Source: Deltaproteobacteria bacterium (GTDB lineage: Bacteria > Bdellovibrionota > Bdellovibrionia > Bdellovibrionales > JAMPXM01). From it: 64,000 nucleotides of DNA. Where the stretch lies: positions 1 through 64,000 of the forward strand of contig JAFLCB010000005.1 in NCBI GenBank assembly GCA_017302795.1, given 5' to 3'. A program made the translations under genes and the position numbers. The notes beneath the pieces were generated by a model. That model saw only the letters and a program-made list of their open reading frames with translations. It searched no databases and had not been told where the DNA came from. The number at the start of each line of letters is the position of its first letter. Position 1 is the stretch's first letter. Below are positions 43,596-49,921 of this stretch, piece after piece.

Positions 43596-44225
43596 TTAAC
43601 CGGGAAGACCTTCGGCTTTGATCGCCTTTTGCACAGATGGTCGCTCTGTCATTCGCCCCATAAACTGTTTCAATGGTTCGAAGGGCGATAGATCGAACGC
43701 AATCATTCCCGACCATCTCAAAAGCGTTAGCAGATAAAAGTCCGCCACCGTGACTTGGGCACCCATTAAATACGGACGCGAAGACAAGCGCTCTGCAAGC
43801 AAGGTTAAGCGGCGCGCAATCACTTTTTTATTGTTCTCTTTGAATTCTGTGACGGCCTCTTGATTGGAAACCATACGCCCAATCGCGAACATCGCGCCCA
43901 TCGACTTGTGCACTTCCGCCGAAAGATAGTTCAAGAGCTCGAGCATTTCGTAGCGCTCAGGCGTCCCGGCCTTCGGCATCAACGCAGTGTCGGGCTTCTG
44001 ATCTGCAAGAAATTGCAAAATTGGAGAAACTTCCGTCATGACTTGGCCGTCCGGAAGCTGAAGCGCTGGCACATAACCCTTGGGATTAATTTTCAGAAAA
44101 TCTTGGTCATCGAATGTTTTCTTTTTTGCCAAGTCGACGCGAATCACTTCGCAATTCAAACCAAGCTCGTTGATTGTCGAGTGAACTGCGAACGAACATG
44201 CGCCCGGTGCAAAATAGAGTTTCAT
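43596..44225 (-). CDS. Glutathione S-transferase
   Basis: 209 residues. N-terminal thioredoxin-like domain MKLYFAPGACSFAVHSTINE carries the beta-class Cys10 region, then YVPALQLPDGQVMTEVSPIL with the cis-Pro and the ES/VS glutathione-binding turn; the C-terminal helical domain ends MGRMTERPSVQKAI with the capping N-box. It matches bacterial GstA (beta class), which conjugates or reduces glutathione adducts. Overlaps the TIGR02147 gene by 4 nt, though the stop-start overlap on the minus strand makes GST the downstream gene. Confidence 0.93.
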   Translation of the reverse strand: MKLYFAPGACSFAVHSTINELGLNCEVIRVDLAKKKTFDDQDFLKINPKGYVPALQLPDGQVMTEVSPILQFLADQKPDTALMPKAGTPERYEMLELLNYLSAEVHKSMGAMFAIGRMVSNQEAVTEFKENNKKVIARRLTLLAERLSSRPYLMGAQVTVADFYLLTLLRWSGMIAFDLSPFEPLKQFMGRMTERPSVQKAIKAEGLPG

Positions 44226-45196
44226 GCGTGACCTCCTTCGACTTTATCAGTTACTGGAAACAATTGAATGTTGATTTGATAAACTCGCTCACCCTTGGAG
44301 GATTCGCGTTTGACCATAAGGTCTTTCTGAATACGTTTTCTTAGTTGGCGCAGTTCGAAACGAACCTGTTCAAATTCTTGTTGGGTCATCGCCATCGTCA
44401 GTGCGCCAAATTCGCGATCTTTAGGAGAGTCTTTGAAAAGCGACTCAATACCTAGATATATGAGCTCTGCCTGAAGTTTACGAATCATTTCTACAGGAAG
44501 TTCTTGGGGGGCTTCGATAAGATCGCGGCCCTTTACGACTCGTCCGTTCTCTGACTTCAGGTCGCCGTTGTCAATCAGCCGCTTGAGTTCGCCGCGAATG
44601 TCCTCTGGGGAAGTCTTCGCCCTCACCAGCCGGTAAAGTTCATCGGGATCAAAACTTACTCCATACTGTTCAGACATTGCATAGAGAACCCAGCCCATCC
44701 AACCCGGAACCTTGTCCCAGGCCTCTTGGTTGATTTCGCCGCTAGCAAACGCGCGCCGGGCACGGAGATCAGCCAGTTCCTTTAAATATTGATTTCGCTG
44801 AATTGGTTCGGTTTCCTGACCGTAATGGACTAGCGCACGAAACTCTTCTGCTTCTGATTTATGCAATCGAAGTGCTTTCGCAAAACGCACAATCATGTCG
44901 TCTGACAGATTTCGGCGACCTTCAATAATGAGCTTCAGATAGTTCGGTGATTTAATGTCGGCAGCGGCCGAGAACGCAGAGTAAGAATACTGGCGGAGAC
45001 CAGTACTTTCAACTTTTCTTCGGTACTGATAGACGTCCTTTAAGTACTGCCGAAAATCTGTGTATGTCCCTAATGCTGGGGCGCCAGAAGGAACATCTAG
45101 TTTCGCTTTCGTCTTTCCCGCAATCGGCACCGTGGATTCAATGGCGTTATTGGTAGGCGCGGAAGGCAGGGCGGGCGAGATATCGATGTATTCCAT
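44222..45196 (-). CDS. TIGR02147/DUF4423-family regulator
   Basis: 324 residues from ATG 45196 (MEYIDISP); the longer frame to 45361 is rejected because it crosses the structured repeat. Motifs TYTDFRQYLKDVYQYRRK, YSYSAFSAAADIKSPNYLKL, IEGRRNLSDDMIVRFAKAL and the later winged-helix-like SPEDIRGELKRLIDNGDLK are the TIGR02147 family, abundant in Fibrobacteres and Bdellovibrionota and thought to be transcription factors. Its 5' leader holds a large hairpin and repeat copy A, possible cis-regulation. The gst gene overlaps its end by 4 nt. Confidence 0.9.
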   Translation of the reverse strand: MEYIDISPALPSAPTNNAIESTVPIAGKTKAKLDVPSGAPALGTYTDFRQYLKDVYQYRRKVESTGLRQYSYSAFSAAADIKSPNYLKLIIEGRRNLSDDMIVRFAKALRLHKSEAEEFRALVHYGQETEPIQRNQYLKELADLRARRAFASGEINQEAWDKVPGWMGWVLYAMSEQYGVSFDPDELYRLVRAKTSPEDIRGELKRLIDNGDLKSENGRVVKGRDLIEAPQELPVEMIRKLQAELIYLGIESLFKDSPKDREFGALTMAMTQQEFEQVRFELRQLRKRIQKDLMVKRESSKGERVYQINIQLFPVTDKVEGGHA

Positions 45197-45285
45197 GCTA
45201 AGAGGCTTCCACCGAGTCCAACGATTGACAAGCGGTTGCGCGAGCTTGGAAGCGTCGCAACGCTCCGGCTGTTTGCGTCGCTGCG

Positions 45286-45320
45286 CCTTGGCGACCCTCC
45301 ACAGGAGGGCCCCGCCAAGG
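45286..45320. repeat. Strong hairpin in the leader of the TIGR02147 gene
   Basis: CCTTGGCG-A-CCCTCC (45286-45300) pairs with GGAGGG-CCC-CGCCAAGG (45304-45320): an 8-bp and a 6-bp stem separated by a small internal loop, with a 3-nt ACA loop. It lies 90 nt upstream of the ATG of the minus-strand regulator gene and directly adjoins repeat copy A, so both would be in one mRNA leader. Confidence 0.85.
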
Positions 45321-45391
45321 GGCTGCGTCTCGGGCGAGCCTCGCTCCTTCGAAGCTCTCACCCTCGTTCCGTGCAGTAGCGCGGAAAGATT
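45321..45391. repeat. Dispersed structured repeat, copy A
   Basis: About 71 bp, roughly 85 percent identical to 47560-47630. Conserved block CTCCTTCGAAGCTCTCACCC is shared; the 3' part folds as TTCCGTGC-AGTA-GCGCGGAA, where three of the pairs differ from copy B yet remain paired. Located upstream of the TIGR02147 gene. Probably a REP-like mobile or regulatory element; identity unknown. Confidence 0.8.
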
Positions 45392-45426
45392 AGGGTGTTT
45401 TTAACTGCGCGTTAAGTTGGCTGCTG

Positions 45427-46842
45427 CTAGTTCATGGGTAGGCGGAGTTGCGTCGTTGGAGTGTGGATACGCGCGACCGTCAGAACAATTCGGTCGACCA
45501 GCGAATCCGCTGTCGCACTGCGGACTGTCAATTCAACTTGAAGGTTTCCACGGCCATCGTTTTTCAAAAGGCGAGCGTCGCGAATCACGTCGACCAACCG
45601 ACCATCGACGGGAACGACTTCCCCATCAATAACGGTAATGGCGGGCGAGACCGTGATACCAACATTAGGTTGGTCACTGGAATTCGGTTTCGCTAATGGG
45701 CCCGTAACTTGAACCAAGTCTGGCACAACACGGTTCCATTGATCGAGAAGATTCATGTGCATTGTGATCGCAAAGTTGGACGCTCCGCCAATAGTTTCCG
45801 ATGTCGTCAACGTCAGCCTGTTCACCACATTGTAACCCGATGGATTTTTTGTCGTGTTTAAAAGAATCGACATCAAACGATCGTATTCTGGATTTTTAGA
45901 AACACCTGGCGCATTGCCTTCAATATAAAGACTGGCGCTGGTGTGACGTGCGATCATGTGAGCTGTCCGAATTTTACCGCTGGAAGCTTCCTGAATTTTT
46001 ATGTGCACGGTTTTGCAGCCGCCTGAAAGGTCCATGCACGCAACATCAGCCATAATAAACGGCTCGCGAGTAATGGCGCCAACTCGATATTGCATCACTT
46101 CATCGACGGCTCCTTCCATCTCGACCTGAGCTTTGTTTCCATTCCGCAAATATTTGAAGGCGAGCTTTCCTCGGCGCGATGTCCAGTCTACTTCGAAAGA
46201 CGAAAGCTGAATCGAATGAGCTAGCGCTTTATTTTCCGCGCGAGACTGAGGATCCAGCATCGCTTCCTGATTGTTCACCAGGACATAGAGCTGTTCGCGC
46301 AGAGTATCTTGGCCTGCGCCAGTGTAATACAAAGTTTCACCTGGGCCTGAACGTATGTCGCTCGCGACCTTTTCACCTAAGAATGCGCCCGCTTGGTCAA
46401 GGGCAGCTTTTTTAGAAAAAATTTGGTCCGGAGATTGACCCGATGGATCGTAATAGACCACTGATTCAACTCGCGGATCCATCTGCTGGATTTTTGCGGT
46501 TAAATCGGCAGGATCTGCTCCCGGATCCGGCTCCAGCTCGCGCACTTGACCGACATTCGTCGTTCCGAGGTCTTCGCCTCTCTTGTGTACGGCAGCCGAC
46601 TGTCCAGAAGCTTTATCTAATTCATTTGGGGTGGGAGACGGTTTCGCCGGGCCCGCAGAGACTTTCGCCGGCGCTGCGCCCGGTTTAGGTTGTGCACCTT
46701 CTTGTTGATTGGAACAAGCCGTCGTCAGTGCCAATGCCGCCGCTAGTGCGAAAATCGCTTGAACGTAGAATCGAGGAGCCGCATTGAATATGCGTCGATT
46801 TGCCATCTTCTGGTTGGCAGATTTTGAATTGAGTGATCGCAT
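45427..46842 (-). CDS. Large lipoprotein of unknown function
   Basis: 471 residues with GAGGAGT upstream. Lipobox ALTTAC (Cys about 43) after the hydrophobic segment AIFALAAALALTTA; then a Pro/Ala-rich linker (QPKPGAAPAKVSAGPAKPS) typical of proteins crossing the periplasm from a membrane anchor. The mature part is beta-rich with repeated Ile/Val strands and a C-terminal LTVARIHTPTTQLRLPMN; one Cys pair (DVACMDLSGGC). Family not recognised. About 460 bp of upstream non-coding DNA precede it. Confidence 0.7.
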   Translation of the reverse strand: MRSLNSKSANQKMANRRIFNAAPRFYVQAIFALAAALALTTACSNQQEGAQPKPGAAPAKVSAGPAKPSPTPNELDKASGQSAAVHKRGEDLGTTNVGQVRELEPDPGADPADLTAKIQQMDPRVESVVYYDPSGQSPDQIFSKKAALDQAGAFLGEKVASDIRSGPGETLYYTGAGQDTLREQLYVLVNNQEAMLDPQSRAENKALAHSIQLSSFEVDWTSRRGKLAFKYLRNGNKAQVEMEGAVDEVMQYRVGAITREPFIMADVACMDLSGGCKTVHIKIQEASSGKIRTAHMIARHTSASLYIEGNAPGVSKNPEYDRLMSILLNTTKNPSGYNVVNRLTLTTSETIGGASNFAITMHMNLLDQWNRVVPDLVQVTGPLAKPNSSDQPNVGITVSPAITVIDGEVVPVDGRLVDVIRDARLLKNDGRGNLQVELTVRSATADSLVDRIVLTVARIHTPTTQLRLPMN

Positions 46843-47302
46843 AGGGACTCCTCGTTACACGGAAAGTTTCCGACTAAATACTTTGGACTCAACGTCTTCT
46901 ATGGCAATTGAAAAGCAATCACAGTGCCCAAATTTTCATGGTCGAAAACGAATTGATCGACCTTAGACCGAAGTTTCCGCTGCGAAAAAAACGTCGTGCG
47001 CCGATCCGCGGCTTCTGAAGTGCCCAGATCTGTCACCAATTGAGAAAAAAGTTTTTCAACGGATTTACGTTTGAAAAAAACGTTAGGTCGAATCTAGATC
47101 GTCAAGAGGTGTGAGCTTTTTAACACCTGTCAAAAAGTCAGACAGCCATTTCGCACGCACCACTTTTAAACCGTCCTATTGCGAGACCCACTATTCCATT
47201 CGAGGTATTAGCTAGTTAGACTGATCTCAGTTCACAAACAGCTCTGCCAAGCGGTCCGTTGTGTCGCAGAGATAGTCAGAAGATTTAAGCATGGAGGAAT
47301 TT
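46843..47302. other. Divergent intergenic region
   Basis: 460 bp between the lipoprotein and the small membrane-protein genes, read in opposite directions from here. Contains small inverted repeat AGGTGT-N10-ACACCT (about 47109-47130) and AT-rich tracts such as GTTTGAAAAAAACG, possible promoter elements; no box can be named with confidence. Confidence 0.45.
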
Positions 47303-47542
47303 ATGGCGACAAAAAAAACACCGCAGGTACGAATCATCAAGAAGCAATACACACGCAAGGAAGTTTTCGAAAGCCTCGTTTATGAGCTTAAACCGTTTGT
47401 TATTGCCGCAACTGGCTTTGCAAGCGCCGTCTACTTTACTCAACAGCACAACACGATTGCGAAGTACTTTAGCATGGCAATGATGCTCGGCGGACTTGTC
47501 ATCCTTTACTGGCGTGCAAAAGACCGCGGCATTATTCAATAG
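47303..47542 (+). CDS. Small two-helix membrane protein
   Basis: 79 residues from ATG 47303, with GGAGG 5 nt upstream; an in-frame ATG at 47291 overlaps that site. Basic N-terminal tail (MATKKTPQVRIIKKQYTRKE), then two membrane helices (FVIAATGFASAVYF and YFSMAMMLGGLVILYW) and a short C-terminus. No known domain. Repeat copy B starts 18 bp after the stop. Confidence 0.7.
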   Translation: MATKKTPQVRIIKKQYTRKEVFESLVYELKPFVIAATGFASAVYFTQQHNTIAKYFSMAMMLGGLVILYWRAKDRGIIQ

Positions 47543-47559
47543 TGGCGCTTCGCCCTCCG

Positions 47560-47630
47560 GGCTACGTCTCGGGTGAGCCGCGCTCCTTCGAAGCTCTCAC
47601 CCACGTTCGATGCAGGAGCATCGAAAGATT
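47560..47630. repeat. Dispersed structured repeat, copy B
   Basis: Partner of 45321-45391. Contains CTCCTTCGAAGCTCTCACCC and ends in the perfect hairpin TTCGATGC-AGGA-GCATCGAA followed by AGATT, as in copy A. GGGTGAG near the start can also pair with CTCACCC. It sits in the 107 bp between two convergent genes, a place where a 3'-end or terminator-like structure could act on both. Confidence 0.8.
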
Positions 47631-47649
47631 TTGGGCGTGGCGCTACGGC

Positions 47650-48438
47650 CTACGTTTTGTCGAAAATTGCGGTTTCTAGTTGATGATCCCGAAGCCACCG
47701 GCGATGAAGCCGCGCTTCGGGATCAAACGTTTCCACTAAATTCCAAAATCTTACTGAATGATTCGCATGAACGAGATGTGCCAGTTCGTGAATGACGACG
47801 TAGTCGATGACCGCCTCTGGAGCGAAAACCAATTTCCAGTTCAGACTTATATGACCGGAAGTTGAGCAACTTCCCCAGCGAGTTTTTTGGTTTCGGAATG
47901 ACAAGCCCGAAACCTTCAATTTCATTTTTTCGGACCAAAACTGAATCCGTTCGGTCAAGTGCCGACGAGCCTCCGCTTCTGAAAATTTCGCGAGTCCTTC
48001 TTTCAGGTTTTGGCGAAGCATCTCGCCGGCGAGCGAAAACATCGGACCGGGCAAATGAGCAACGAGATAGTTCTCTACAATTTCAAATTGCAGCCTCGCT
48101 TTTTCGCTTTGTTCAAAAATGAGCTGCCGTTCTATTCCGTAAAACCGAAACAACTCGCCAGGTAGAAACTTTTTGGGCGGATTCTTTTTCAGGAGATTTT
48201 CGCGCCGAGAGGTTTGCCGAGCTTGTTGTTTTTCAATCCATTCCAGATTTGCTAATACAAACTCTTTAATCAGCGTTTCAGAAACACGTTTAGGAACCAA
48301 AACCTGCACTTGGCCCATGTGATCCACGGTCATCTTCAAACGTGCAGCCACCAAACGTCCAAATACCCGCCGCTGGCGGCTTTCGACGATCTTCAGCTTA
48401 ATATTTAACACCCGACTTGGGCCAACTTGGATCTCCAC
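47650..48438 (-). CDS. YgjP/SprT-like zinc metallopeptidase (DUF45)
   Basis: 262 residues. HELAHLVHANHSVRFW gives the HExxH-x5-H zinc site; upstream RFYGIERQLIFEQ and WGSCSTSGHISLNWKLV are conserved in the YgjP/DUF45 (Pfam PF01863) family. Probably an intracellular protease-like enzyme of unknown target. The start ATG overlaps the 5' part of the divergent SrkA frame. Confidence 0.9.
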   Translation of the reverse strand: MEIQVGPSRVLNIKLKIVESRQRRVFGRLVAARLKMTVDHMGQVQVLVPKRVSETLIKEFVLANLEWIEKQQARQTSRRENLLKKNPPKKFLPGELFRFYGIERQLIFEQSEKARLQFEIVENYLVAHLPGPMFSLAGEMLRQNLKEGLAKFSEAEARRHLTERIQFWSEKMKLKVSGLSFRNQKTRWGSCSTSGHISLNWKLVFAPEAVIDYVVIHELAHLVHANHSVRFWNLVETFDPEARLHRRWLRDHQLETAIFDKT

Positions 48439-49749: not shown

Positions 49750-49842
49750 GGCCGGGTCCCGCACAACGGAGCGCCGCTAATCCCGCCAGGTCCGAAAGGA
49801 AGCAACGGTACCGGATGCGATGTGTGATGTGGGGTGCCCGGT
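49750..49842 (+). ncRNA. ffs: Signal recognition particle RNA, small bacterial type
   Basis: The conserved SRP core is clear at 49784-49809: CCGCCAGGTCCGAAAGGAAGC with the GGAA-type tetraloop and the symmetric AGG.../GAAGCA loops that bind Ffh. The outer stem pairs CCGGGTCCCGCAC (about 49752-49764) with GTGGGGTGCCCGG (about 49829-49841). A 93-nt helix 8-only RNA, 80 nt upstream of dnaX as in many bacteria. Ends are estimated from pairing. Confidence 0.93.
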
Positions 49843-49921
49843 CACCATTTTCACAACATTCAGTCGCGTTTCGGGACATCGAACCTCGAAACGAGTCGGT
49901 GGTCGCGGAGTTAAGCACGGA

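Follow-up and report, generated by a model that had tools for sequence, protein, structure and literature searches.

Two copies of a short structured repeat in the window, by which we mean the whole stretch of 64,000 nucleotides that was analysed, belong to a family of paired hairpins that we read, with a probability of roughly 0.6, as a REP-like, non-autonomous mobile DNA element that a transposase, probably a RAYT, moves in trans. The element's two hairpins and short unpaired tags would be recognised as single-stranded DNA (the putative substrate), and a RAYT-type Y1 (HUH) transposase (the putative enzyme) would copy the unit to new sites in trans. New copies would preferentially enter past a YY(N4)RY stretch, and often at positions immediately following a stop codon, where they do little harm; once in place, the unit would amplify in tandem.

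The repeating unit and its two copies in the window

Each repeating unit, some 53 nt in length and without any gene, consists of YGTC, a hairpin (H1), TG, a second hairpin (H2) and ATT. Matches found with copy B as the query gave the consensus GTCGCTNCGGCC-TNC-GGCCTNCGCTGCTTTCGATGC-AGTG-GCATCGAAAGATT, with H1 formed by a 9-bp frame closed by a 3-nt loop and in most cases interrupted by a 3x3 internal loop, and H2 by 10 bp and a 4-nt loop. Units occur singly or in tandem with a period of about 60 nt, the last unit often being truncated. Of 86 units, 80 have the GTC tag, and a Y stands before it at 65 of 66 loci.

That the window holds two structured copies was the starting claim, and they are real: positions 45320-45391 and 47559-47630 are 86% identical across 72 nt, and a 20-mer common to both occurs twice in the window, compared with 0.02 occurrences expected from shuffles. 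Their full extents are 45277-45391 for copy A and 47544-47630 for copy B, the latter with a truncated second unit that runs to 47654. The parts of both copies and their neighbours are as follows.

45277-45279, + strand: copy A, GTC tag at the unit's left end, placed by unit comparison; the preceding CTGTTTGC fits the YY..RY flank
45280-45327, + strand: copy A, hairpin H1, extended form
45286-45321, + strand: copy A, long hairpin insert within H1, CCTTGGCGACCCTCC-ACA-GGAGGG..CCAAGG
45328-45366, + strand: copy A, nested hairpin module M2 (model R2 match C5:45323-45370)
45367-45386, + strand: copy A, hairpin H2, TTCCGTGC AGTA GCGCGGAA
45389-45391, + strand: copy A, ATT at the right end
47544-47546, + strand: copy B, tag, with GGC replacing GTC, 1 nt past the TAG stop codon at 47540-47542
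47547-47566, + strand: copy B, hairpin H1, short form
47567-47605, + strand: copy B, nested hairpin module M2 (model R2 match C5:47562-47609)
47606-47625, + strand: copy B, hairpin H2, TTCGATGC AGGA GCATCGAA
47628-47630, + strand: copy B, ATT at the right end
47637-47654, + strand: copy B, truncated second unit, GTGGCGCTACGGCCTACG, from the sequence and a like pattern at other loci
44222-45361, - strand: TIGR02147 regulator ORF, neighbour of copy A
45427-46842, - strand: 471-aa gene on the other side of copy A
47291-47542, + strand: 83-aa ORF immediately upstream of copy B
47650-48438, - strand: YgjP-like metallopeptidase gene, convergent, downstream of copy B

Three base pairs differ between the H2 stems of copy A (TTCCGTGC/GCGCGGAA) and copy B (TTCGATGC/GCATCGAA). 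All three had been proposed to change with pairing kept; two are true double changes, whereas the third is one-sided (T-A versus T.G). Similarly, the 14-bp hairpin reported to abut copy A in the leader of the TIGR02147 regulator does exist, at 45286-45321, and the TIGR02147 gene is indeed its neighbour, but the hairpin belongs to the element's own H1 module rather than to a regulator leader, and the same long insert recurs in other copies of this genome. The first start codon of the TIGR02147 ORF falls within copy A; judging from the sequence and from orthologues, the true start is probably an ATG near 45197. Elsewhere in the window, a bacterial small SRP RNA (Rfam RF00169, 60 bits) was detected at 49750-49846.

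Between H1 and H2, both copies carry module M2 (TCTCGGG..CTCACCCTCG), which contains the shared 20-mer. Fourteen M2 modules were found in the genome holding the window (G000; 4.23 Mb in 39 contigs), always between H1, or its remnant at C3:384744, and H2. Two more are present in the related genome G002 (L217 and L219), there inverted within H2, and a model search detected none in G001, G003 and G004. From this placement, M2 looks like a second hairpin that inserts itself into the units.

Pairing in the stems and the strand proposed to fold

Compensatory change, suggested at first from two copies, proved far stronger than two copies could show. Across 49 distinct ungapped units (covariation set A5), pairing is kept in 88.4% of cells, compared with 39-45% when partners are slid, and double changes are found in 14 of 19 stem pairs. 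Cells with double changes number 137, where shuffles give 44. The covariation score reaches 0.401, compared with 0.156 for shuffled data (0 of 500 shuffles reached it) and at most 0.085 when slid, with the reservation that these copies are related, so that covariation counts do not equal independent events and can be inflated by template switching or whole-hairpin swaps. Some H1 stems are wholly different yet paired, as in GTGCCGACC/GGTCGGCAC, CACCACCC/GGGTGGTG and GATCGACC/GGTCGATC. The covariation probably reflects selection for structure but does not compel that conclusion, since arms can also stay complementary through template switching from one arm to the other or through whole-hairpin swaps.

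We infer that the minus strand is the folded, working strand. The mismatches T.C and C.T, present in 44 and 41 of the 57 distinct H1 hairpins, become G.A on the minus strand, and minus-strand H1 folds better in 54 of the 57, versus 1, under DNA parameters; fold energies of whole units clearly favour neither strand. The choice of strand also bears on a different reading, namely that the repeat is a transcribed 3'-UTR RNA element whose double hairpin guards mRNA ends against exonucleases or limits read-through to the gene that follows, and which is kept for that role. Many units are co-oriented with the gene ahead of them and lie 1-4 nt past its stop codon, others follow tRNA genes or hairpins, and the stems covary, all of which such an RNA would explain. 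However, the strand favoured by the H1 mismatches is the minus strand, antisense to the gene ahead of the unit, and H2 pairs show G-T over A-C by only 15:7, in counts that are not independent. Moreover, copy A is oriented opposite to both of its neighbour genes, the window copies have no terminator-like site, turnover is high, and orthologous genes within the genus occur without the element. We consider this RNA reading unlikely. An intrinsic terminator was separately ruled out for the window copies, where no stem followed by a T run exists.

Distribution, insertion sites and local growth

The original prediction was to fail if only these two copies existed, which is not the case: the covariance model of the unit (R1) finds 53 matches in G000 at about 29 loci, and a search with copy B as the query returned 37 matches, tandem arrays among them (copy counts in this genome rest on the model searches). 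The family is present in each of the genus's five genomes, with 7, 57, 8 and 22 model matches in the four besides G000. Among sister genera, weak model matches were found only in G005 (2) and G008 (1); the R1 search gave none in six other sister-genus genomes and none in 27 further genomes of the order. A pattern search of 13 genomes of the taxonomic family, for which a reversed control gave 0, agreed with the model and added single H1-like copies in G005, G008 and G009. The family is thus nearly restricted to one genus. A sibling element was observed within the same taxonomic family, in which an H1-like hairpin is followed by CTTTCCTC..CAGTCGCGAA in place of TG-H2; the exact pattern has a single occurrence per genome in G009, G003, G005 and G006 (L258, L266, L274 and L275, respectively).

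Comparison of orthologous sites argues well for mobility of the element. The copy B site is empty in G003 and G004, where the orthologous convergent gene pair is separated by a short spacer, and the orthologous site in G001 gave 0 model matches; the copy A site is likewise empty in G003 and G004, behind the orthologues of the 471-aa gene. Because these sites in relatives are empty, both window copies must have been gained in this lineage. Two further empty sites were identified (L178 versus L077 and L164 versus L093), the scar GTGTCGCT is found in G000 at a site that holds two units in G002, and few loci are common to different genomes.

The family is mainly intergenic, and its 5' flank is conserved, with YY at -8/-7 (59 of 66 loci each), R at -2 (59 of 66) and Y at -1 (65 of 66). 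ORF contexts were set by a length rule, with a minimum of 90 codons, rather than by annotation; of the 43 first units that follow such ORFs, 23 start 1-4 nt past the stop codon, for which p is about 5e-28 under uniform placement over 200 nt, a rough value as intergenic lengths differ. One tRNA-Leu, the same in two species, is directly followed by units with different hairpins (L163 in G002, contig C88, and L023 in G000, contig C4), which would mean either that the site is old or that it was targeted more than once. At the 3' ends of orthologous genes in G001 (L103) and G002 (L163), units located 4 and 3 nt past the stop codon have H1 stems that are wholly different and fully paired, which would be due either to independent insertion at one spot or to hairpin replacement.

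Within arrays, the spacers are near-identical and match the left flank in a few letters; since they do so, and since the last unit is often truncated, the tandems appear to have grown in place. Such local growth also suits a family of passive palindromes, in which slippage and gene conversion, together with chance transfer, would produce the copies and template switching between arms would keep these complementary, with neither transposase recognition nor structural selection. In-situ slippage or conversion clearly happens: units of one tandem have the spacers and hairpin sequences of their locus in common, and a truncated last unit frequently stops at a hairpin border. Stem changes often involve several pairs together. 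Against a purely passive origin stand the dispersal over about 29 loci, the conserved left flank motif, the clean empty sites, and the unpaired tags GTC, TG and ATT, which are conserved as much as any stem position. We regard it as distinctly improbable, more so than the RNA reading.

Three further candidates were rejected. A CRISPR-like array was ruled out by the units of about 60-nt period at about 29 dispersed loci and the near-identical spacers within an array. A phage origin was represented by two exact 17-mer matches in viral contigs, where the sequence is unrelated and no unit surrounds them. As for an autonomous form with a gene common to the loci, blastp of the surrounding ORFs matched almost only the repeat's own translations.

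Candidate transposase and relation to known repeats

Six Y1-like (Y1_Tnp-like) genes are present in G000. One of them, L032, is RAYT-like, matching NCBIfam REP_Tyr_transpos with E=3.5e-15 and 56 bits, under the cut-off of 80; its best PDB match is TnpA-REP (4er8, E=2e-7), in an alignment that covers both the HUH and the C-terminal tyrosine regions. In a tree of 22 RAYTs, those of G000, G001, G002, G004 and G008 fall into one clade (support 98/96), so that, of the genus's five genomes with the element, four also have an L032-clade RAYT, which further occurs in G008, a sister genome with a weak element match. No RAYT of this clade was found in G003, which has the element and whose genome is 76% complete. 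A RAYT gene adjoining the element had been put forward as something to look for, and this part did not hold: no significant R1 match lies in 19 Y1/RAYT loci, comprising the Y1 genes of G000 and the RAYT loci of relatives. RAYTs of other clades are present in most genomes of the order without the element. Because no unit flanks the Y1 genes and other-clade RAYTs are common in element-free genomes, the link of the element to the L032-clade RAYT is suggestive only. Copy number also counts against a RAYT-moved element, tens of copies being low compared with classical REPs.

The five remaining Y1-like proteins of G000 (L031, L033, L034, L035 and L036) are divergent, carry an NVGNHLHL or NVGNHIH motif, stand apart from RAYT and mostly fall below the Pfam cut-off. 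One of these paralogues, or a non-HUH enzyme, might move the element instead. The presence of six Y1_Tnp-like genes, five of which form a separate group, gives this idea its basis, but none of these Y1-like genes is near a unit, and we give it very little credence. Returning to a RAYT-type enzyme, a more specific proposal, possible if doubtful, is that the junctions GTC, TG and ATT alone are read by sequence while the stems drift as long as they pair, that the RAYT lineage would act purely in trans, and that the unit serves as a landing site for a mobile M2.

The prediction of a REP-like element is supported: the repeat is dispersed, palindromic, intergenic and gained at empty sites, in a genome with a RAYT gene. 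It is also undescribed as far as tested, since Rfam covariance models gave no match to it and literature searches found no REP description for the Bdellovibrio group. GTAG and CGTC REPs often lie within 20 bp behind genes, and CGTC REPs, for which TGTC variants and no dedicated transposase were reported, have stems starting with A-T pairs, loops of 4-5 nt and a tail reading CCA, and mostly form head-head dimers (Di Nocera et al. 2013, PMC3733652). Like CGTC REPs, the element has an unpaired YGTC (CGTC or TGTC) tag ahead of a 9-bp hairpin; unlike them, its stem starts with G-C, its loop is 3 nt, a TG tail precedes a second hairpin, and head-tail tandems are the rule. With GTAG REPs, REPINs and BIMEs it shares the many short intergenic palindromes close behind stop codons, stems that vary with pairing kept, an unpaired tag at one end, and a RAYT gene in the genome. 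In contrast to GTAG REPs, it has no conserved GTAG, its minus strand reading GNAG with all four kinds of N, and whereas REPINs and BIMEs are built of two inverted copies of a single hairpin, its unit places two unlike hairpins in head-to-tail order. It further differs from GTAG REP-RAYT systems in that it does not flank the RAYT, is near genus-restricted, has tens of copies and carries a nested third hairpin.

The BOX elements of pneumococcus are modular mosaics of hairpin boxes with a variable number of inner modules, and the present element is modular in a like manner, although it is not known to be related to BOX in sequence. At the ends of IS200/IS605 elements, Y1 transposases recognise single-stranded hairpins and insert behind a short target, as is proposed here; unlike these, the element has no internal transposase gene, its enzyme being only a putative one.

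Overall, the element works like a REP and is placed in neither the GTAG nor the CGTC superfamily; it represents a new family within a general type already known, its unit having two hairpins and housing nested modules. With its junction letters fixed, its stems varying while paired, and empty sites in sister genomes, it lends itself, as a natural experiment, to asking which features a hairpin transposase recognises, and it provides a case for testing whether RAYTs can work when no repeats lie next to the RAYT gene.
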